64,000 bases of DNA from Candidatus Heimdallarchaeota archaeon (GTDB lineage Archaea > Asgardarchaeota > Heimdallarchaeia > Heimdallarchaeales > Heimdallarchaeaceae). Each line of letters starts with the position of its first letter. Position 1 is the stretch's first letter. Below, one piece after another: positions 1,782-38,860 of the stretch. The notes below the pieces were generated by a model, which searched no databases, was not told the DNA's origin, and saw nothing but the letters and a program-made list of their open reading frames with translations. A program made the translations under genes and the position numbers. The DNA lies in the NCBI GenBank assembly GCA_016840095.1, contig JAEOSZ010000055.1, positions 1 to 64,000 of the forward strand. Direction: 5' to 3'.

Positions 1782-2675
1782 CTATTTTTTACTTAATCTT
1801 TTTAGATCAGCTTCTGCAGCTATATAGCCGAAAGTTGCCCAGTTTTCTAAAGATGTAATCTCCTCAAGAAGAGTCTTTGCTTCTTCTACTCTATTGTTGT
1901 AATAATGCCAATTTGCTATTGCATAAGCTATTGCAGCATTCCCCAACTCTCCTTCAACTCTAGCTTTTGCCATCATTTCTTCAGCTGTAAACATTCCTTT
2001 GTACATTAGTAATTGTTTGAAATAATAGTGATTTTCAATAATGTCCATTTCTTGGTGAACTTTTTCTAGAACTCTTTCAGCTTCTTGGTCTCTTTCCAGC
2101 AACTTTAGAATCATATATATCCAATGTGCACAAGCAACATAGTTGTCCTCAAGAGCTAGAGAATCTAATCCATTGATGTATGCTGTTAATGAATCTTCAT
2201 ATTTTCCTTGAAGATAATAGGTTAACCCTAAGTGATACCAAATGTTTGAATGTAATGAGCTAACAGGAATCCCCCTATCATTAGGTATACCATCAGGTTC
2301 TATCTCATCTGGTTTTCCTTCAATTAACAGTGATGCTTTAAGTAAATCCTCAACAGCTAAATCAAATAATCTAAGTGTGATGAATCTGTGACCCCTATGA
2401 CGATACATTCGAGCATCTTCAGGAAATTGATTAATTCCTTCAGTGAAAATAACTATAGCTTCTCTCATCCTACCAAGATATGCAGTTCTTCTACCAAGCC
2501 AGATGATATTATCAGCATTTTTGGGATTCTTCCTGTAATCCATGAGAGCTTTTTGGTAGTACTTTTGTTGCATATTAAGAATCTCTGAAACAAGAGGTAT
2601 TCTAAAAAGGGGTTCACCAAACAAACTAAATCCTTCAATATCTCTGAAAAGCTTCGAACCGATCATAGTACTCAC
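1782..2675 (-). CDS. TPR-repeat protein
   Basis: Repeating ~34-aa helical pattern (DNIIWLGRRTAYLGRMREAIVIFTEGINQFPEDARMYRHRGH..., IWYHLGLTYYLQGKYEDSLTAYINGL). Confidence 0.75.
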   Translation of the reverse strand: MSTMIGSKLFRDIEGFSLFGEPLFRIPLVSEILNMQQKYYQKALMDYRKNPKNADNIIWLGRRTAYLGRMREAIVIFTEGINQFPEDARMYRHRGHRFITLRLFDLAVEDLLKASLLIEGKPDEIEPDGIPNDRGIPVSSLHSNIWYHLGLTYYLQGKYEDSLTAYINGLDSLALEDNYVACAHWIYMILKLLERDQEAERVLEKVHQEMDIIENHYYFKQLLMYKGMFTAEEMMAKARVEGELGNAAIAYAIANWHYYNNRVEEAKTLLEEITSLENWATFGYIAAEADLKRLSKK

Positions 2676-2756
2676 TAGATAACACTTCTTATGAATTTAT
2701 TTAATGTTCAAAACAAGATACTAACATTCCACAAAAATAAAAAGTTGAAAGAAAGA

Positions 2757-3311
2757 CTAAATCTTTCTTTTTTTGCTTGCTAGATATGCTAGACTTAAAA
2801 CTGCTATAATCGGAAGTATAATCCCTAAACTTGCTTCTTTAACTCTTACAAAGCCAGGTATCCAGAGGAAACTATAATCTGGGTCTTCTCCTTGTGTATT
2901 ATTCCCTTTGAAGCTATAGAGAGTAGCAACAGCAAATTGTTCAAATGGTATACCTGACAGATTATACGATAAAGCAGTATTACTACTTCCACCTTCTACA
3001 TTGATATCTGAGAGAGTTGTATTATCTGTGAGAAAGACTGATTCTCCTGAGATTGAAATGTCTACTACAATATCATAGAAACCCACAATAACTCCTTCTA
3101 AAGTTCCAAAAGTAACAGCTTCCAATTCTAAACTAAGATCGAATAGAGAACCGTTTACATAAGTGTATTTGAAATTAGCTGTTACCTTATATACTGTTCC
3201 ATCAGTTTCAGTTTCTGCGATCGATATGGCAGAAGTTTGTGTTGGAATAAGTAAAATGATGAAAGTAAGGCAAAGAATACTAATGTGTTTTTTCTTCATG
3301 AAATGCACCAA
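2757..3311 (-). CDS. Secreted surface protein with signal peptide and C-terminal TM anchor
   Basis: N-terminal hydrophobic signal ending TSAISIAE; C-terminal LGIILPIIAVLSLAYLASKKRKI. Confidence 0.65.
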   Translation of the reverse strand: MVHFMKKKHISILCLTFIILLIPTQTSAISIAETETDGTVYKVTANFKYTYVNGSLFDLSLELEAVTFGTLEGVIVGFYDIVVDISISGESVFLTDNTTLSDINVEGGSSNTALSYNLSGIPFEQFAVATLYSFKGNNTQGEDPDYSFLWIPGFVRVKEASLGIILPIIAVLSLAYLASKKRKI

Positions 3312-3450
3312 TTAACAATAAAAAGAGAAGTTAAAAAGTTTCTGTAGACTTAAAAACTATATCTAAAACCATTTCAGAATAACACTTAATAGAGAAAAAG
3401 TGCATGAATCATTATTTGATATTTAAAAATCAAAAAATGAGGTTACAAAC

Positions 3451-7573: not shown

Positions 7574-8107
7574 GTGAAAACAATGCCAAAGAAAAATTTT
7601 GATTTTGCGTTTATCGAGAATGAAATTAGAAAGAAAACATTTGGAATTTTAAACACCATTAATCCAAATAACAGCCCTCAATCATCGGGAATCCTCTTTG
7701 GAGTGTCCAAACCTGGAGATCCGTTTTGTATTTATCTAAAGACATTCAAGTCCTTCAGAAAAACAAAGAATATTCAAAGCAATCCGAATGTTACATTTGT
7801 AATTCCTGTCCCTCACCATATTCTGCGGTTTATACCAACTAGTACAATAACGATAAAAGGTCAAGCGGAACTAGTTTCAACTGACTCTGAAGAAGTTATA
7901 GAAGCATTTAATGAAAAAAGAATGCTAAGAATGATTCTAAAAGATCTCAATGACCCTGAAGTTAAGAAAAAGACGACATTCATCAGAATTAAACCAAAGC
8001 CTAAAATTCTATGTTATGGTGTTGGATATAACGTTATAGAATTAGGAAGATCACATACGTCAGTTAGTTATTCTGTTATGATCCCAGAAGAGAGACTGAA
8101 CAAATAA
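7574..8107 (+). CDS. Pyridoxamine 5'-phosphate oxidase-like flavin-binding split-barrel protein
   Basis: FGILNTINPNNSPQSSGILFGV...IYLKTFKSFRKTKNIQSNPNVTFVI...TITIKGQAELV, typical PNPOx-fold pattern. Confidence 0.65.
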   Translation: MKTMPKKNFDFAFIENEIRKKTFGILNTINPNNSPQSSGILFGVSKPGDPFCIYLKTFKSFRKTKNIQSNPNVTFVIPVPHHILRFIPTSTITIKGQAELVSTDSEEVIEAFNEKRMLRMILKDLNDPEVKKKTTFIRIKPKPKILCYGVGYNVIELGRSHTSVSYSVMIPEERLNK

Positions 8108-8221
8108 TCTCTCCAATTTGAGTAAGGAGTTACTCCTCATTGATTTTTTCTGCGAGATTTTGGCAAAACTGGAGATCTTCTTTCTGAGATAAGACTTGTT
8201 CAAAAAGACGAATATCTAGAA

Positions 8222-8407
8222 ATGTGCGCTTATCCTGAAGAAAAAATACCTGCAATTTATGCTAATTTCACAGTAGAAGGTTTAACTAATAGAATTAAAA
8301 CTAAAGGAGTGCATAGTTCTTGGTCCGTCGTAGCAAATATAAGTGATCATAAAACAATGATTGCTCTAGCATTTCTAAGAAAATATGAAAAAGAGAATAT
8401 TAAATAG
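8222..8407 (+). CDS. Small ORF of uncertain status, possibly the 3' end of a decayed gene
   Basis: Frame remains open and protein-like upstream of the ATG (FFLRDFGKTGDLLSEIRLVQKDEYLEM...). Confidence 0.3.
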   Translation: MCAYPEEKIPAIYANFTVEGLTNRIKTKGVHSSWSVVANISDHKTMIALAFLRKYEKENIK

Positions 8408-8421
8408 TATCCAAAAAATAA

Positions 8422-8622
8422 TCAGAAAATAGATGTTACATTAACCGCTTGAAATCCTTTGTCTGTTTTTTCTATGTCAAATTCTACTTCATCTCCCTCT
8501 TTGAGATAATAAAAATCATCAAGTGTAGTTGACCAGTGAAAATAGATATCTCTCTTCTCATCTGTTTTGTTGATGAATCCAAATCCTTTGATAGGTAGTA
8601 TCCTCTTTATTGTTCCTTTCAT
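8422..8622 (-). CDS. Cold-shock-domain protein (CspA-like)
   Basis: MKGTIKRILPIKGFGFINKTDEKRDIYFHWSTT...GDEVEFDIEKTDKGFQAVNV matches CSD RNP-1 (KGFGFI) and RNP-2 (DIYFHWS) motifs. Confidence 0.9.
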   Translation of the reverse strand: MKGTIKRILPIKGFGFINKTDEKRDIYFHWSTTLDDFYYLKEGDEVEFDIEKTDKGFQAVNVTSIF

Positions 8623-8890
8623 AATGTACCTCCTTAAGTAAATTCACTTTTTGAAATCAGGAGTGCTAATCCGTGTATGCTAAAAAATAATCCAAATAAA
8701 TCAGCTGTTAGTAAGTAATTCAGCCAAAATTCTATCTATTTTCCTTTTCATGTTGTTTAATCTTCAGCTTTTATAAACAATGTGTTGTTTCTGTTTTGGT
8801 ATTTGTGATATTTTCAAATTGTTTCTAAATTCAGCGTTTAAATCACGAAAAATATATAATTCTATTCAGTTCAGTACTTTATTGTTACTT

Positions 8891-9901
8891 ATGAAAGAAC
8901 TATCTAGTAAATTACAGAAATATCTATCAGATAAAAGTGGGAAAGACAATATCACAGTTGAGAATTTCGAGAAACTCAATTTAGGTTTTGAAACAGAAAA
9001 ATATTCTTTCACTGAGCTTTCTTATGTTGATAAAGAACCAGTTGTAAACAAATTCGTTTTGAGAATGCTTCCTGATATTGATGAATGTTATGGCGCTAAG
9101 AATGAGTTTACTACCATGGATAGACTCTACAAAGAAGGTTTTCCAGTTCCAAGAGTTATTTTGCATGAGGAAGATGAATCTATTTTAGGAAAACCATTCT
9201 TGTTGATGGAATATATTGAGAATAGATGGTTCCCAACAGTAATACTAAAGGCTAGTTCAGATCAACAGATGTATTGGCTGAAGAAATTTACCGAACTATT
9301 AGTTAAACTGCATCAAATAGATTGGAAGAAAATAATAACAGATAAAGCACCAAAAAACATAGATGATCCATTTTTCACAATTGATGTATATCTCACCAAT
9401 TATATCACTGATTGGAAAAAACACGGATTTTCTCTATACAAAACCACACTTGCTTGGCTTAAAGAACAGAGAGAAAATTATCCTGCTAAAAGAGTGGGAT
9501 TTAATCATGGAGATTTTCATTTTGCTAATGTTATTGTCGCAGAGGATGATACATTGTTTCTAATTGATTGGAGCTACTCTAATGTGAGAGATATTCGCAT
9601 GGATATAGCATATTCCTTTTGCGTTTTCCATATGGAAAAACAAGGGGAACTTGGAAAATTGTTCTTAGACTATTATGAAGAACTTTCCGGAGAACCAATG
9701 GGTGATTTAGCCTTCTATGAGGTTCTATCTGCAATTCAACTTATTTTCTTTTGCATAATTTCAATTGAAAAATTAAAGAAAGAAAGCGAGAATTATTTGA
9801 AAGGATTGAAGCACTTCAAATTTTGGTTAGAGAATTTGTACAAATTTCTAGTAGAGAGAACAGAGGTAAGAATCCCAGAAATTGAAGAAATGTTAGGTTA
9901 A
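8891..9901 (+). CDS. Aminoglycoside phosphotransferase/choline kinase-family (APH) protein
   Basis: VGFNHGDFHFANVIVAEDDTLFLIDWSYSNVRDIRMDIAY (Brenner HGDxxxxN and IDW motifs); ATG at 8891 preferred over track start 8780. Confidence 0.85.
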   Translation: MKELSSKLQKYLSDKSGKDNITVENFEKLNLGFETEKYSFTELSYVDKEPVVNKFVLRMLPDIDECYGAKNEFTTMDRLYKEGFPVPRVILHEEDESILGKPFLLMEYIENRWFPTVILKASSDQQMYWLKKFTELLVKLHQIDWKKIITDKAPKNIDDPFFTIDVYLTNYITDWKKHGFSLYKTTLAWLKEQRENYPAKRVGFNHGDFHFANVIVAEDDTLFLIDWSYSNVRDIRMDIAYSFCVFHMEKQGELGKLFLDYYEELSGEPMGDLAFYEVLSAIQLIFFCIISIEKLKKESENYLKGLKHFKFWLENLYKFLVERTEVRIPEIEEMLG

Positions 9902-17726: not shown

Positions 17727-17850
17727 TTTGTGTTTCAAATATTTATAATAATAAAATCTTGTGCAATATACTCTCATAGAAGATTTATTGAACTCTCTTC
17801 TCACTTCCTTTCTTGGGGAAAAAATTATATTTGAGTACAGTTTATCATCA

Positions 17851-19821
17851 ATGCTTATGGTAAGAGCAAGATTTGTAAAGCCGATTCTAGTTTTACTCTT
17901 TACTACTTTGTTTCTCTTAAGTGTAGTAAATACTAGTATCAATGTTAATTCAAAGGAACCTATTGCTAATCTTGTAATTAAAACCAGTGGAGGAGGAGTA
18001 AGACCTAATTACTGTCTTTACATAGCTCAATATTTACGAGAGGTTGGAATTGAAGTAGAAATTAAAACTGAAGAGTGGGTTGTCTTTCTAGGACAAATAC
18101 TATTTACGCATAATTATGATTTAGCTGTAGTAGGTTGGTCACTCAATCTTTTCTCTCCTGATATGAGAGGGGTTTACACTGAAACCAGTCCTGAGAATAT
18201 TTGTGGCATTACTAACGATATTCCTTACATCAATCAGAGTGAAGAGATGTTACAAGAAGGAATTACTATTCTTGAACTAACTGAAAGGCAACAGCTTTAC
18301 TTTGACTGGCAAAAATTGATAATGGATCGAATTCTTCCTATTCTACCTCTTTATACTACAATGAATTATTGGGCTCTGTGGTCAAATACTAAGGGTTATG
18401 ATTCCAGATGGGGATTATACGATAATTTACCTTATATGAGCTGGGAAGATTACCATTTTGGTCAAAAATCTTTAGATGAACTTAATCTTGATGAAGGATA
18501 TTGGTTATCATTAAATCCTCTTAATGCTCCTGATGCAGCAAGTTATAGATTTATTAGTTTGATAATGGACAAATTAATAATTTGGAGTCCGGATAATCAA
18601 CCTCTAAGATCAGGACCTATCTACGATTGGGAGAAGTTTGATGATTTTCATTATAAATTCTTTTTACGAGAAAATATGTTTTGGAATCCTTCTTATAATG
18701 TTTCACTAAGAAATGAAAATTCTCCTGAACTTTCATCTATACCTTCACCAGAACTAATGTTTGGATTAAAAAATGATGAATTTAGTGATGGAACTAATCA
18801 AAATATCAAAGCTAAAGACGCAGTTTTTAGTATATTAGCTCTAGCAAATGAAGAAGTAAGTGATTTTTCCTATTATTTCAATTGGATTTCAGATTTATAT
18901 GTGGATGAGGAGGATGAGTATGCTTTTCATCTAATTATTGATGGTAATCCGGAAACTCCTGAGAAAGAAGTTTATGTTGACTTTTGGTATGATTTATCTT
19001 TAATCAGTTTAATTCCTGAATTCTTTCTGAATTCTACAGACATAACTATTACTCAGACTTCTGGGGGAGTAGAATGTAGTGGTTTTTATCCAGGGATTCT
19101 TTCAACCCCTCAATGGAAAGCCTTTGATCATACTCCATTTGGTAGTGGAATGTATCAGCTTGATTACTATTTCAAAAATGTATTAACTGTCATGACGAGA
19201 AGTCCATATTGGTTTGGTGTAGGTAGATTAAACAACCAAGAAAATATGGTGCCTTTTGTGGAAACACTCAACCTTAGAGTTATTCCTGATTCTACTTCAA
19301 GCATTACAGAATTCAGAGCAGGAAAACTTGATCTTGTTTGGCTCACAGGTTTTACATCTGAAAGAAGGCAGATGGAAATTGATGACAGAATGACTGTTTA
19401 TAGTACTCTTTCAAGTGGCTACACGTTTATGATTTTCAATCTTGCTAGACCCTTTATTGGCGGAACAAATAATTATGAATGGTTGACATCAGAAGGAAAA
19501 GAAGTATATACTAAAGGAGTAGCAATTAGGAAAGCAATTAGTTATTCAATTGATAGAGAAGAAATGAATGATGTGCTACATAATGGAGAGTACATCATAT
19601 GTCACAGTCCAATTGTTCCAGGATTGACTTATTATTATTATAACGATGTCATTAAATATAACAAAGATTTGAAAAAAGCTGAGGAATGGCTTATAGCAGC
19701 AGGATATGACATAGAGGTAGATGGAACTACATTTGAATTATTCACCACAATAATAGGTATATCATCAATTCTAGTTATTCAAGGATATATACAAAGAAGA
19801 AAGAAGATTACTAAGAGCTGA
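17851..19821 (+). CDS. ABC-type family-5 (DppA/OppA-like) solute-binding protein, circularly permuted domain order, C-terminal TM anchor
   Basis: N-terminal YLREVGIEVEIKTEEWVVF...YDLAVVGWS...ERQQLYFDWQKLIMDRILPILPLY is normally C-terminal; then LNPLN...YDWEKFDDFHYKFFLRENMFW...AKDAVFS (normally N-terminal); ends RKAISYSIDREEM...KKAEEWLIAAGY then TM. Confidence 0.85.
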   Translation: MLMVRARFVKPILVLLFTTLFLLSVVNTSINVNSKEPIANLVIKTSGGGVRPNYCLYIAQYLREVGIEVEIKTEEWVVFLGQILFTHNYDLAVVGWSLNLFSPDMRGVYTETSPENICGITNDIPYINQSEEMLQEGITILELTERQQLYFDWQKLIMDRILPILPLYTTMNYWALWSNTKGYDSRWGLYDNLPYMSWEDYHFGQKSLDELNLDEGYWLSLNPLNAPDAASYRFISLIMDKLIIWSPDNQPLRSGPIYDWEKFDDFHYKFFLRENMFWNPSYNVSLRNENSPELSSIPSPELMFGLKNDEFSDGTNQNIKAKDAVFSILALANEEVSDFSYYFNWISDLYVDEEDEYAFHLIIDGNPETPEKEVYVDFWYDLSLISLIPEFFLNSTDITITQTSGGVECSGFYPGILSTPQWKAFDHTPFGSGMYQLDYYFKNVLTVMTRSPYWFGVGRLNNQENMVPFVETLNLRVIPDSTSSITEFRAGKLDLVWLTGFTSERRQMEIDDRMTVYSTLSSGYTFMIFNLARPFIGGTNNYEWLTSEGKEVYTKGVAIRKAISYSIDREEMNDVLHNGEYIICHSPIVPGLTYYYYNDVIKYNKDLKKAEEWLIAAGYDIEVDGTTFELFTTIIGISSILVIQGYIQRRKKITKS

Positions 19822-32703: not shown

Positions 32704-33906
32704 TTGACTCCTAAAAACTGGGAAATTCTTTTAAGACAGTTTAAGCAATGTTTTTTGTTGAAACAACGAACTAAGTTAATTAGACTTATATTCTTCACTC
32801 TAATTATCTCATCAATTTGTCTGTGCAATTCTAGTGGAGATTACAGTGTTATTAAATCTAGTAAAAACTTAGTTAATACAGATAGACCATTTCTTTCTCT
32901 TGGTGATTTTACCGTAACTAATCATGAAACACTGATTGATATTGAATCTATTGATAACATAACAATTGATGAAACAATTACCTTGCGTAACAATCAAAAT
33001 GATACTGATTCACTAAATATAACATTTAGTCAACCTAATCCTCAGAACTTAACATATGAAAGTCTTATTATTTCCAATTATGTTGAAGGGTATCAACTTC
33101 CTTTTGTGTTTGTTAATGATACGAATTTGATAAGTATTGATTTATTATCTCAATTGAATACAAGTGAAGAAATTACTATCCTACTGAGTTATAATTTGCC
33201 TATAGAACTTCCTGAAGTTTCTGGAAAACCATCTTATTTTATCTTCCAATTCAAGCAGAATTTCAGCTATTATACTGAGTATCATTCCACTTTCCTAAGA
33301 TTACCAATTGGATGTTTTATACATGAGGACATACTCATTCCTGTAACGCCAGAGGATTATGACCATGAGGTATCTGGGAAGCGTTTGCATCTTTACTGGG
33401 AACGTGAGAATCTACTGGCACAAACTACCTTAGAATTCATCATCTTTTTTGATGAACCTTTTTATCCTTCTAATTACATCTGGGCATATTTTGTTGGACC
33501 AATACTTGGTATGCTTCTAGGTGGATGTATTGTTTATTTCTGGATGAAAAGAGGTACACAGATTCTGGAGGAAGAAATAGAAAAAATATACCTTACAAAG
33601 AATCAAGAATTATTATTAAGATTGATAGATGAAAGCAAAGGTAAAATTACTCAACAACAATTAATTGCCATAACTGATTTTACAAAATCTAAAGTTTCAA
33701 GGAATCTTACACCTTTAGAGGAGAATGGTTTAATCGCAAAAGAGAAATGGGGAAGAGAATTCAAAGTGAGTTTAACCAAAAAAGGTCAGAAAGTAGCAGA
33801 AAAATTAGTTGCTGAAAAGTTGCAATTTTCTGAAAAATTTTCTCAACCCGATTTCTCAAAAGAGTCAAAAAACAATATGGAGATGAAGAAAAGTGAAGAT
33901 AAATAG
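32704..33906 (+). CDS. Membrane-anchored one-component regulator: extracellular domain, TM, cytoplasmic winged HTH
   Basis: N-terminal TM, extracellular beta-rich region, TM AYFVGPILGMLLGGCIVYFWM, then LTKNQELLLRLIDESKGKITQQQLIAITDFTKSKVSRNLTPLEENGLIAKEKWGREFKVSLTKKGQ; TTG start uncertain. Confidence 0.75.
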   Translation: MTPKNWEILLRQFKQCFLLKQRTKLIRLIFFTLIISSICLCNSSGDYSVIKSSKNLVNTDRPFLSLGDFTVTNHETLIDIESIDNITIDETITLRNNQNDTDSLNITFSQPNPQNLTYESLIISNYVEGYQLPFVFVNDTNLISIDLLSQLNTSEEITILLSYNLPIELPEVSGKPSYFIFQFKQNFSYYTEYHSTFLRLPIGCFIHEDILIPVTPEDYDHEVSGKRLHLYWERENLLAQTTLEFIIFFDEPFYPSNYIWAYFVGPILGMLLGGCIVYFWMKRGTQILEEEIEKIYLTKNQELLLRLIDESKGKITQQQLIAITDFTKSKVSRNLTPLEENGLIAKEKWGREFKVSLTKKGQKVAEKLVAEKLQFSEKFSQPDFSKESKNNMEMKKSEDK

Positions 33907-35518
33907 GAAAACAGTACTTACTATTAGTGTAGTGATTCTTATATTCCTATCTACATTTATTCCTATTTATATTGTTTTCAAACCCAAAGATCAACGAATC
34001 AAGCATGAGCCAATAATAATTTGGAAAGATGACGATTTCAAGAATTTTGAATTCTCAGGGGATGGAAGCCAAGAGAATCCATATCTTATAGAAAATCTTG
34101 AGATTATTACTGATTTCAAGTATAGTATCTATATCAGAAACACATTCAAACATTTTGTCATTAAGAATTGTTATCTAGCCTCAAATGAATATGGTATCTA
34201 TATAGATAACATAGCTGATGGAACAGCTGTAATTACAGAAAATATCTGTGAAAACAATGAAGTTGGAATATGGATATCAAATTCAGAGAATTTAATTGTT
34301 TTCAATAACAGCTGCTCTAATAATGGTGAAACCTCAGGAGGAGGAATAATTGTAACAGATTCTTCTTTCTGTAACATATCGAATAATTATTGTTATAAAA
34401 ATAATTTCTATGGCATTAAAGTAGAAAACACAGAAGCTTGCAATATAATCAATAATACTTGTATTAAAAACGAAAATCAGATTCAAGGTGCTGGAATTTA
34501 TGTTTTTCAATCTTCCCTAACGCTGATAGAGAATAATAATTGTAGTTCAAACAGAAGAAATGGAATTCAAGTAACTGCATCAAGTTCAACCAATATCTCA
34601 AGCAATCTTTGCGAAGATAATTATCACATTGGAATTTTAGCAACAGGTTGTCCTAATTCAATCATTTCAAATAATTTTTGCTTAAGAAATAGGAATTGGT
34701 ATAAGAGAGAGAGTCATGGGATTGTACTTCAATATTCTTCACACTGTAATATAACGAACAATTTAGTTGACTCCAATATAGGTAATGGAATCTTTCTAGA
34801 AAGTGATTCTAATAGCTTTATCTCAGATAATTTAATCTATAATCACACTGGATATTACGAAGCTCTCTATTCTCCAAATAGTCTTTTCTTTGGTTACTCA
34901 ATATATTGTTACAGCTCGGAAAATATCTCTGTTCTTCGAAATGAAGGTATAAGTAATTATGGAGGGTGTTGGATTGAAAGTTCCCATAATATGAATATTT
35001 CCTCAAACCTGTTTTCATATAGCTCAAGTTATGCAATAGAAATTCATGAAGGTTCAAATTGTACAATCAAGAAGAATGTTTTGAGTGAAAACGATATAGG
35101 TATTGGTTTTAGTAATACTGAGTTGTCTATTTTATCAAATAATTTGGTCCAAAACTCTGATGGATATGGTCTCATATTAAATGGATCATCAATCAATAAT
35201 TCTATTCATCATAATAGCTTCATTGGAAATAATCTTGCAGGAACTAGTCAAGGTTATGACGAAGGAAATGATAATTTATGGTATGACAATGTAACTAAAG
35301 AGGGGAATTTCTGGAGTGATAGAATCAGTGGGAATTATTCTATTGATGGACCTTCCAGTTCTGAGGATTTATACTGTCTAGAAGAAGATCCTTTCAACTA
35401 TTTACTAAATACATCTATTAACAGAAGTATTGCATTTACACAATCTTCAATCTTTAATGATCTTACTAATACAATCAAACTAAAAGCTGTTAGATGGATA
35501 AAAAAAGAAGAATTATAG
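33893..35518 (+). CDS. Parallel beta-helix (NosD-like) surface protein
   Basis: N-terminal TM; GSQENPYLIENLEI; repeated NNxxxxNxxGIxV rungs; EGNFWSDRISGNYSIDGPSSSEDLY; GTG start overlaps the upstream gene by 14 nt. Confidence 0.85.
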   Translation: MKINRKTVLTISVVILIFLSTFIPIYIVFKPKDQRIKHEPIIIWKDDDFKNFEFSGDGSQENPYLIENLEIITDFKYSIYIRNTFKHFVIKNCYLASNEYGIYIDNIADGTAVITENICENNEVGIWISNSENLIVFNNSCSNNGETSGGGIIVTDSSFCNISNNYCYKNNFYGIKVENTEACNIINNTCIKNENQIQGAGIYVFQSSLTLIENNNCSSNRRNGIQVTASSSTNISSNLCEDNYHIGILATGCPNSIISNNFCLRNRNWYKRESHGIVLQYSSHCNITNNLVDSNIGNGIFLESDSNSFISDNLIYNHTGYYEALYSPNSLFFGYSIYCYSSENISVLRNEGISNYGGCWIESSHNMNISSNLFSYSSSYAIEIHEGSNCTIKKNVLSENDIGIGFSNTELSILSNNLVQNSDGYGLILNGSSINNSIHHNSFIGNNLAGTSQGYDEGNDNLWYDNVTKEGNFWSDRISGNYSIDGPSSSEDLYCLEEDPFNYLLNTSINRSIAFTQSSIFNDLTNTIKLKAVRWIKKEEL

Positions 35519-37780
35519 ATTTCTGTCTACAATTCTACGTTTTCTAATTCTTCCAAGAACTAAAGCAATTAGTAACAATGAGCTAAAGATAGCTGTTGAC
35601 TTCTGGAATGAAGTCTTCAGGATAGGATTTTCAGTTCCTACAATGAAAGAATAGTTTTGACTGTTGTAAGTTAAACCATTCGAGTTCTGTAATTGCATGA
35701 AAAATTTGACAGAATCTCCTTCATCAAAGTCCTTTCCTATGTTATATTCATACGTATTTTCTGCTTCATTTGTCATTGTTTCATTTGACCACAGAGCATC
35801 ATTAACTTGGTAATTCAACATTGAGGAAACGATATTTTGATTTTTGTATTCAGCTGTTACAATTATATCCTTACCTAGTTTATCATGATTTTTTGCTGTA
35901 ACTGTAATATCTGGAAAATAATCCTTTTTTGGTAACCAATCATTAGCTAGACATAGATCTCTAGGATACTTTACTACATCATCACAGTAATAGTAGGAAG
36001 TGAAAGGATACATCGTACTATTAGCTAAAAGATTTTCTCCGTAATAAAGATCATCATTTATTTCTACACTATCAATGGCATAGCTGATTGCTTTTCTAAG
36101 AGAACAAGCAAGTGTATAATCTTTCTTTCCTTCTTCTTGATTAAAGACATAGTTTGAAGCTCCTCCAATAAATGGTCTTCTAAGATTAAAACCTACAAAA
36201 TGAATATTGTCTCCTAGTACCTTTACAACATTGTATCGCGGATCTTCCTCCATAACTCTTCTATCTTCAGGGAATTTGTTAAGAACAGCGAAATCCAAAC
36301 TACCGTTTTTAAATAATGCAAATTCGATAGATTCATCTGAAATAGCATGGACATTCAAAGTTTGCACAAAAGGTTCGAGATCTGTTGCTCCGTCAATTGC
36401 CCCAACTCCAAACCAGTATGGACTTCTCTGAAAAACTGTAATGTTCCCAGGATCATGATAGTCAAGCATAAACTTGCCACAACTAAATGCAGAAGTTAGA
36501 TAGATTAACCATTGAGGTGTATCTAACATTTCTGGGTATAATCCAACTGTTTGAACTCCTCCTAGTGTTTCTGAAACCATCGGATTTGTAGAATTCAGAA
36601 AGAATTCAGGCATAATTCTTTCAGTAAGTCTTCTCCAAACCTCGGCATTAGTTTCTAATTCTGGGGTTTCAGGATTATTATCTATATGAATGTGAAAAGC
36701 TAATTCATCACTAGGGTCTACATAAATATCAGAGATAAATTGCATAAAACCAGGAATATAACTTATCAGTGGATTCCCTATTGCTAGTAAAGTAAAGACA
36801 GCATCTTTTGCTGTCACTTTCTGATTAGTACCATTACTAAATTCACCATTCTTTAAACCAAGCATCAATTCTCCTTCAGGAATTGATGATAACGGTGGAG
36901 AAAGATAATCTCTACTAGTACAATCATAGCTTGGATTCCAATAAACATTATCTCGAATAAAAAACTTAAAGTGATTATCATCTATCTTTATCCAATCATT
37001 AATCAATCCTGTTTTAACTTGTATTTGATCAGGACTCCACTGAATCATTGATTCATGTAGTAATTCTAGAATGAACTTGTTGTCACCAGAAAGAAGATGA
37101 TAGTATAAAGGATTCAAAAAATCCCAGTAAGCTGCTATATTGAATTCACTTGTTGATGTTTGACCTTCGTGTAACCCATCAAAACTCATGTAAGGTAGGC
37201 TATCTAGAAATCCCCATCTTTCATTGAATCCCTGAGTATTTGACCATGTTGTCAAATAGGAATAGGCGGCAAACAATGGCACAATTGGAATAATCTTGTC
37301 ATTCATTAACTTCTGCCAATCATAGTAAAGCTGCTGTCTTTCTTCTGGATCCATTATCTTTATTCCTTCTAGAAGCATTTCTTCATTTATATCCCCGTAT
37401 GGAATATCGTTTCTTATTCCAAAGTAATTCGCTAAACCATTTCCTGAGAATACATGATAGAAATCAGGAGTTTCCCCCAATCCAGTTATACTAGCTATAG
37501 CTAAATCAAAATCATGTGTATATCTTATAGTATGATCAAAAACTGACCATTCCTCTATAACTATTGTAACATCTATTCCTATGTCTTCAAGATATTCTGA
37601 TACATAGAGAGCTACATCAGGTCTAATACCTCCTCCATTTGTTTTCAAAACTAGATTTAGCCATATTACACTATCTGCTTTCGCAACATCTTGAGCATTA
37701 ACTGTTGATGAAAAAATAACAACTGATAACAGAAATGAAATGATTATTTGTTTTCTCCTATTTGAAGCCATAATAGTCAA
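35513..37780 (-). CDS. ABC-type family-5 solute-binding protein, circularly permuted, with C-terminal Ig-like segment and TM anchor
   Basis: Paralog of 17851-19821: YLEDIGIDVTIVIEEWSVF...ERQQLYYDWQKLMNDKIIPIVPLF at the N-terminus; SLRKAISYAIDSVEIN near the C-terminus; then beta-rich extension and TM/RKRR. Confidence 0.85.
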   Translation of the reverse strand: MTIMASNRRKQIIISFLLSVVIFSSTVNAQDVAKADSVIWLNLVLKTNGGGIRPDVALYVSEYLEDIGIDVTIVIEEWSVFDHTIRYTHDFDLAIASITGLGETPDFYHVFSGNGLANYFGIRNDIPYGDINEEMLLEGIKIMDPEERQQLYYDWQKLMNDKIIPIVPLFAAYSYLTTWSNTQGFNERWGFLDSLPYMSFDGLHEGQTSTSEFNIAAYWDFLNPLYYHLLSGDNKFILELLHESMIQWSPDQIQVKTGLINDWIKIDDNHFKFFIRDNVYWNPSYDCTSRDYLSPPLSSIPEGELMLGLKNGEFSNGTNQKVTAKDAVFTLLAIGNPLISYIPGFMQFISDIYVDPSDELAFHIHIDNNPETPELETNAEVWRRLTERIMPEFFLNSTNPMVSETLGGVQTVGLYPEMLDTPQWLIYLTSAFSCGKFMLDYHDPGNITVFQRSPYWFGVGAIDGATDLEPFVQTLNVHAISDESIEFALFKNGSLDFAVLNKFPEDRRVMEEDPRYNVVKVLGDNIHFVGFNLRRPFIGGASNYVFNQEEGKKDYTLACSLRKAISYAIDSVEINDDLYYGENLLANSTMYPFTSYYYCDDVVKYPRDLCLANDWLPKKDYFPDITVTAKNHDKLGKDIIVTAEYKNQNIVSSMLNYQVNDALWSNETMTNEAENTYEYNIGKDFDEGDSVKFFMQLQNSNGLTYNSQNYSFIVGTENPILKTSFQKSTAIFSSLLLIALVLGRIRKRRIVDRNL

Positions 37781-38089
37781 CTTAAATCCTACTTGTGTTT
37801 GAAAAATATAAAAATCTTCTGCATACTTAATGAAATTAGATATTTTGGAAAAATATCTTAGAATTTCAGAGAGCAGTTAGGAGTTTTTCAAGCAATTATG
37901 TAATGCATTTAATCTGTTTTCCAGATTTACAGAACATGATAAATTCTAGATAAAAGAGTTTGAAGGCTTTTCAAATTTAAGTTTCACATAGTTGCATTTT
38001 GGTTTTACTATTTAATTTCACGTATATGATTTATGCAATGAATTTCTCCTTCATTCAATGGAATCCTTGTGGTTCCAAAGGTGAAAAAA

Positions 38090-38860
38090 ATGAACAAAAA
38101 ACTAGTAATTGGTTTGGTTTTAATCAGCTTAGTTGGTATTACTATGATACCTGTAGGCTATATTGCTTCTGCAGGTGACTGTACTGAAGTTGATTTTGTT
38201 ATATGGCTCGAGACTCCTGAAAAACAAGTTGTAATTGATGAAATGATCACTAAAACTGAAAGCTTAGGATTAACAGTAAATCCTATTTATGTAACTTTTG
38301 AAGAATGGATTGGATATGCTCATGGTTCAAAAGATTATGATATGCTTTATGGCCCCTATATGACTCTCCCTAAAAATCTAAATATTCTTGATCTTGCTCA
38401 ATTAAGCTTGATACTGAACTATTTTGCTTTGACTCATACAGATAAAAAACTAATGACATGTACAGACATTATGTGGAGTATGTTTTGGGAAGCAATAGAA
38501 GATCCTACTTTGATGATGGATGAAGAATTTATAGATAAAATGGTAGATTTGTTCCACATAACTGAAAAACGATATTACATTAAGCAATACTTCTCTGTCT
38601 TTGTTCAATTTGAAACCCCTAGTTCTGATGAATGGGGACCAGTTCCTTCAATGAGAACAGAAGCATTAACCTTCAATTGCTTAAAAGGTCGAGTTTTCAA
38701 AGATGCAGACTTAAGAAAAGAATGGAATTCAATCATAGATAGAACAGTCTTTCTAGATTATCATGCACTTTATACTCCATATCCAGTTTATGAAGTTCAT
38801 CACATATTCCAATATTCTAACTTCCATGATATAACATTACCAAATAACTACTTGTATTGA
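38090..38860 (+). CDS. Secreted protein resembling only the relocated N-terminal module of the permuted solute-binding proteins
   Basis: Signal peptide; TESLGLTVNPIYVTFEEWIGYAHGSKDYDMLYG and MDEEFIDKMVDLFHITEKRYYIKQYFSVFVQFETPS parallel the paralog N-terminal pattern; no TM anchor. Confidence 0.5.
   Translation: MNKKLVIGLVLISLVGITMIPVGYIASAGDCTEVDFVIWLETPEKQVVIDEMITKTESLGLTVNPIYVTFEEWIGYAHGSKDYDMLYGPYMTLPKNLNILDLAQLSLILNYFALTHTDKKLMTCTDIMWSMFWEAIEDPTLMMDEEFIDKMVDLFHITEKRYYIKQYFSVFVQFETPSSDEWGPVPSMRTEALTFNCLKGRVFKDADLRKEWNSIIDRTVFLDYHALYTPYPVYEVHHIFQYSNFHDITLPNNYLY

Follow-up and report, generated by a model that had tools for sequence, protein, structure and literature searches.

Locus and domain organization

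In a 64,000-nucleotide stretch of DNA from a Candidatus Heimdallarchaeota archaeon (assembly GCA_016840095.1, contig JAEOSZ010000055.1, positions 1 to 64,000; hereafter, the window), we analyzed W35, an open reading frame (ORF) at 35513..37780 on the reverse strand that encodes 755 amino acids (aa) without an internal stop. The ORF starts with TTG; the signal peptide more likely begins at an in-frame ATG three codons further on. The encoded protein begins with a signal-peptide-like hydrophobic stretch (residues ~4-35; 37676..37771), recognizable in the sequence and modeled with low confidence as a helix of residues 7-35. It is followed by segment C (residues 43-192; 37205..37654; segment HMM E 2e-47), which corresponds to the C-terminal third of canonical solute-binding proteins (SBPs), and by a short linker of ~10 residues (~193-201; 37178..37204) that fills the gap between segments C and N1 and connects the native C and N termini. 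Segment N1 (residues 202-458; 36407..37177; E 1e-54) is the N-terminal part of the canonical fold, and segment N2 (residues 460-617; 35930..36403; E 1e-43) extends to the permutation point, at the helix ending in ANDWL. The chain continues into an Ig-like/FN3-like beta-sandwich extension (residues ~618-713; 35642..35929) and a C-terminal transmembrane (TM) anchor with a basic tail (residues 727-755; 35516..35602). All these features are encoded on the reverse strand. The motif LYVSEYLEDIGIDVTIVIEEWSVF begins at residue 58, whereas SLRKAISYAIDSVEIN, around residues 560-575, and YPRDLCLANDWL, ending at residue ~617, lie towards the C-terminal end of the SBP core, before the beta-rich extension and the TM segment.

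The swapped order of the segments, claimed in a preliminary description of this locus made from the sequence alone, was recovered by three comparisons. In a Pfam search of the window's own genome, PF00496 positions 291-359 (E 2.6e-5) matched W35 upstream of positions 27-276 (E 1.9e-20) in a single frame, with a score of 98.2 bits vs the gathering cut-off of 32.4. Among solved structures in the PDB, residues 42-184 matched residues 361-501 of AppA, its C-terminal part (E 7e-6), and residues 460-608 weakly matched DppA 199-327 (E 0.12). Finally, profiles of the three segments, iterated over 1211 ORFs to read the segment order, gave C-N1-N2 instead of the canonical N1-N2-C for both W35 and a paralog in the window, W17, with E values between 1e-43 and 9e-56. 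Because of this order, W35 is classified as a permuted variant and not as an ordinary member of cluster C, the only cluster to which its SBP core was matched in Pfam and the PDB; a test for homology to cluster B was negative.

W17 (17761..19821, forward strand; 686 aa, with the true start probably ~33 codons downstream) lacks the Ig-like domain. Its PF00496 matches are in the swapped order too (E 3.3e-7 and 5.9e-30), and it is 44% identical to W35 in an alignment that spans both lobes, in line with the earlier claim of an independent paralog on the opposite strand.

The AlphaFold2 model of W35, built with 44 relatives (mean pLDDT 88.1, pTM 0.77), begins with a signal helix and has a single mixed alpha/beta core that spans residues 41-620; residues 624-713 form an all-beta domain and residues 727-754 a TM helix. 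Its top PDB matches in Foldseek are cluster C SBPs (1dpe, NikA, AccA and OppA). Judging from the alignments and the model, the chain has been opened between the 'AxxWL' helix and the next strand, in the equivalent of domain III of OppA/DppA. The predicted signal peptide is attached ahead of the N-terminus created there, and the C-terminus on the other side of the opening leads into the putative Ig-like domain and then the TM helix. The extension and the membrane anchor are fused exactly at the permutation point. No match to the Heimdall-CTERM sorting domain (NF045529) was found in W35. We conclude that W35 is most probably a membrane-anchored, circularly permuted SBP of the PF00496 family (cluster C, OppA/DppA-like) from a heimdallarchaeal archaeon, an assessment that covers the explanation as a whole, including the mechanism proposed below.

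Distribution of the permuted proteins

The genome from which the window derives encodes 14 permuted SBPs and one canonical SBP, which heads an OppBCDF operon. Matches to the permuted profile were detected in each of the 23 Heimdallarchaeaceae genomes; where the listing was complete, their number ranged from about 4 to 25 in a genome. In the closed genome of Ca. Heimdallarchaeum endolithica (G036, CP084167), 11 permuted SBPs are intact and one further copy is broken, and there is no canonical SBP. The broken copy (G036:C1:1681412-1683350; L117, L077) is split over three frames. In a taxonomic survey that covered Asgard families, the permuted order was also found in at least nine more, f2, f3, f5, f7, f8, f10, f11, f23 and f24, and all of the ~34 bacterial SBPs compared with the segment profiles had the canonical order. 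The clearest permuted case is a relative, L133, in which residues 194-550 align with Escherichia coli DppA 27-368 (193 bits) and residues 27-182 with DppA 373-526 (116 bits). A hydrophobic 19-mer is present in the C-terminal tail of 104 of the 107 permuted relatives.

Neither Pfam nor NCBIfam contains a family dedicated to permuted SBPs, and in the open-licence literature we found no cluster C SBP or Asgard SBP reported as naturally permuted. The family is large and apparently undescribed. Among the peptide-type SBPs of heimdallarchaeal genomes, the permuted form is a dominant and expanded architecture, and it is met with again in other Asgard archaea. Because the swapped order splits the profile matches in two, annotation can easily take these genes for truncated ones, and counts of Asgard peptide-uptake proteins may be too low.

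Origin, rotation and probable reversal of the permutation

For phylogenetic analysis, the sequences were put back into the canonical order and the segments were aligned separately. W35 and W17 fall within a clade composed entirely of permuted proteins, with support of 100 (18 rows) and 97 (29 rows) in the quick tree and 99/96 in the careful tree. Therefore, on sequence grounds, the permutation is older than the W35/W17 duplication, which settles a point that the preliminary description had set for phylogeny. Seven canonical-order proteins of f2-f4 (L024, L025, L027, L028, L030, L031 and L032) nest within the permuted clade in the careful tree (100/100, 95/89 and 100/99). A chimeric origin of these proteins was rejected because both segments, analyzed separately, place them next to permuted proteins of group B.

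The AU test rejected a single permuted clade that excludes the seven nested canonical rows (p-AU 7e-164), and with it a scenario in which the permuted order arose cleanly once and never reverted; a clade uniting the permuted proteins with these seven rows was not rejected (p-AU 0.26). The simplest reading of the trees is one permutation followed by one reversal, the seven nested proteins being a probable reversal. It is also possible, albeit rather unlikely in our view, that the same permutation arose several times independently at a hot spot and that no reversal underlies the nested proteins of canonical order. Such recurrence would account for the rejected topology and for the position of L133/L148 and L159, which fall outside the main permuted clade in the quick tree. 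However, the topology with one clade that includes the seven canonical rows is not rejected, so that an independent origin of L133/L148/L159 is not established by the AU test, and independent origins for the branches around the nested seven cost more steps than a single reversal would.

A second rotation, N2-C-N1, forms a clade of its own (six rows, support 99), so that all three rotations of the SBP fold occur; the ends have been relocated more than once in this family, with at least one probable return to the canonical order. Proteins with this order are encoded at L134:5329-7650 and 7789-9837, L135:5424-7361 and 7629-9569, L136:9728-11662, L142:4904-6814 and L173:989-2833; the one in L136 is a neighbor of Opp permease genes and has a Heimdall-CTERM domain at its end. 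In addition, tandem-fused double SBPs were located in two genomes (G086 and G144). Single ORFs with the order N1-N2-C-N1-N2-C are present at L189:1783-6774 (reverse strand) and L190:992-6445 (forward strand), and probably at L191:3-3092 (forward strand). Such proteins are the expected intermediate of permutation by duplication: the permuted order would have arisen through tandem duplication, fusion and truncation, before W35 and W17 duplicated. More broadly, we give roughly even weight to the proposal that the Asgard cluster C SBP fold has been freely rotated in evolution, with all three orders, still-extant tandem intermediates and at least one reversal, and that the rotation decides which lobe is tethered.

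The juxtamembrane extension

The extension of W35 (~95 residues) folds alone in structure prediction, with a core pLDDT of 93-98. This rules it out as a part of the binding core and agrees with the earlier view of an added, beta-rich Ig-like domain before the TM segment. Its best fold matches in Foldseek are CBM56 and the PPAD Ig-like domain, followed by FN3 domains. The extension is not peculiar to W35. It was found in nine sampled group A proteins, and the tree requires seven gains or losses, so that a single clade of Ig-extended proteins is not supported; the same module precedes the TM segment at the C-terminus of NosD-like Heimdall surface proteins. Given these repeated changes and the recurrence before the TM segment of NosD-like proteins, a mobile juxtamembrane module is supported.

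The stalk role suggested in the preliminary description is likely, given that the predicted domain folds alone and is C-terminal in other surface proteins. The nearest fold, however, is CBM56, so carbohydrate binding is possible, and the extension might be a CBM56-like module that holds the receptor to a polysaccharide instead of a passive stalk. We consider such a role unlikely. The best single-domain fold match is BhCBM56 (TM-score to target 0.81), and the module of a NosD-like protein matches CBM_56 at 3e-14, but the W35 extension itself (E 0.0064, 17.1 bits) is below the 27-bit Pfam cut-off. Moreover, the module adjoins the TM segment in the proteins examined, and other proteins carry tandem copies of it, as is the case for stalk modules.

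Predicted link to Opp/Dpp importers

In two relatives, permuted SBPs adjoin importer genes: three of them flank OppB and OppC in an operon on one strand in one genome (G022, L131), and one lies between OppDF and OppCB in another (G051, L133). Because of this adjacency, the best functional reading of the permuted SBPs is that they are putative receptors for an Opp/Dpp-type importer; adjacency is observed in the relatives, and we infer from it that W35 feeds an OppBC-type permease. By analogy with canonical SBPs, the two lobes of W35 would close on a peptide-like solute, which would then be handed to an OppBC(DF) importer. The permutation would shift the membrane tether to lobe II from lobe I, where the native termini are, and the Ig-like domain would act as a spacer that raises the receptor off the membrane. 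In Pseudomonas aeruginosa, several SBPs, DppA1-A5, share one DppBCDF permease (PMC4206461). The many dispersed SBPs of Heimdallarchaeaceae probably serve a few shared Opp permeases as well. In the window's genome and in H. endolithica, the permuted SBPs are never beside an OppBC permease, and OppBC(DF) sets without an SBP are present. Neither of the two OppBC sets of H. endolithica has an SBP within 100 kb, and the window's genome (G000) encodes, on C143 (L114), C145 (L115) and C104 (L116), an OppBCDF set without an SBP and lone OppB and OppC genes.

Several points weigh against this interpretation. Within the window's own family, no permuted SBP adjoins an Opp permease, and the pairing is taken from other families. 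The Foldseek alignment is sequential, not circular, and covers only part of the permuted W35 chain, with a best TM-score to target of 0.48. The assignment of the tether to a lobe relies on what we take to be the domain boundaries of OppA. Furthermore, the cytoplasmic domains of L157 hint at non-transport roles for some members. In that protein (L157:741-3119, genome G030), a TM segment follows the permuted SBP, and the cytoplasmic C-terminal part contains zinc-ribbon and RING-like domains.

The permuted SBPs of the window's family could instead have lost their connection to an importer and act as sensors or scavenging receptors at the cell surface, with the shifted anchor and the stalk serving signaling or adhesion. 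The separation of all 14 permuted SBPs of the window's genome, and of all 11 intact ones of H. endolithica, from Opp permeases would fit such a role, as would the domains of L157 and the neighbors of W35, a NosD-like surface protein and a winged-helix membrane protein. We nevertheless regard it as improbable: in other families, Opp operons include or adjoin permuted relatives, the sharing of one permease by several SBPs is documented, and H. endolithica, in which all intact SBP_bac_5 proteins (11/11) are permuted, retains its two OppBC sets without any other SBP_bac_5 candidate. An artefact of gene calling or of assembly (the latter already doubted in the preliminary description), or the fortuitous joining of unrelated fragments of two SBPs, was rejected and has a negligible probability: most of the genomes are draft metagenome-assembled genomes (MAGs), but full-length colinear matches occur in 23/23 family genomes and in other families, including closed genomes and many MAGs, and both segments gave consistent trees where tested.

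Neighboring genes and partial copies

Tail-to-tail with W35 lies a gene for a NosD-like beta-helix surface protein (33893..35518, forward strand), identified by Pfam, and next to it a gene for a winged-helix (DUF7343/MarR-like) membrane protein (32704..33906, forward strand). Both are conserved neighbors: the block of winged-helix membrane protein, NosD-like protein and Ig-extended permuted SBP (window 32704-38860) recurs at L063:2077-8190 and L010:194-7833. On the other side of W35, a 263-aa secreted 'mini' protein (38069..38860, forward strand) is, from comparisons of homologs, a probable remnant of a permuted SBP without segment N1. It joins the block in the window and in L063, where its homolog (genome G003) is 60% identical; another homolog, L123, matches segment C at 9e-6, and the homolog at G003:C78 overlaps a PF00496 match to positions 155-282. 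Mini-proteins with segments C and N2 only, roughly one lobe, are also encoded at L047:5416-6441 and L153:1442-2413 and 2410-3414; the one in the window is a weakly supported member of this set. Elsewhere, a group B permuted SBP lies beside MacB/LolD-like ABC genes in the same place in the window's genome and in H. endolithica (L003:1644-6209; L118:5705-10218).

Comparison with known systems

The extension of W35 shares the fold of CBM56, FN3 and Ig-like beta-sandwich domains, with low sequence identity, and differs from them in its juxtamembrane position. The DppA1-A5 proteins of P. aeruginosa resemble the arrangement proposed here in that several homologous SBPs are available per Dpp permease and one is encoded apart, but they come from a Gram-negative bacterium and were not reported as permuted (PMC4206461). 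With the cluster C SBPs (SBP_bac_5, PF00496; OppA, DppA, AppA, NikA), W35 shares homology over all segments, the predicted fold and a signal peptide, and some of its permuted relatives adjoin OppBCDF. Unlike these proteins, W35 has the order C-N1-N2 instead of N1-N2-C, its termini and anchor in the equivalent of domain III, and a C-terminal TM segment with an Ig-like domain at the permutation point.

The closest precedent is TpMglB-2 of Treponema pallidum (Tp0684, 'Cluster Bc'), a natural circularly permuted SBP for which tethering was suggested as the cause (PMC4990184); no other natural SBP permutation besides this cluster B protein was found in the open-licence literature. Like W35, TpMglB-2 is naturally permuted and membrane-tethered, but it is a bacterial cluster B (sugar) protein of a different SBP fold class with a different cut point. 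As the permuted architecture recurs in Asgard archaea together with close canonical relatives and apparent intermediates, two questions become testable, namely, whether tethering drives permutation and whether permutation can revert. Free rotation, if true, would provide a natural system in which the gain of permutation, alternative cut points and its reversal can be compared within one transporter family, in contrast to TpMglB-2, for which one permutation is described and no other rotations.
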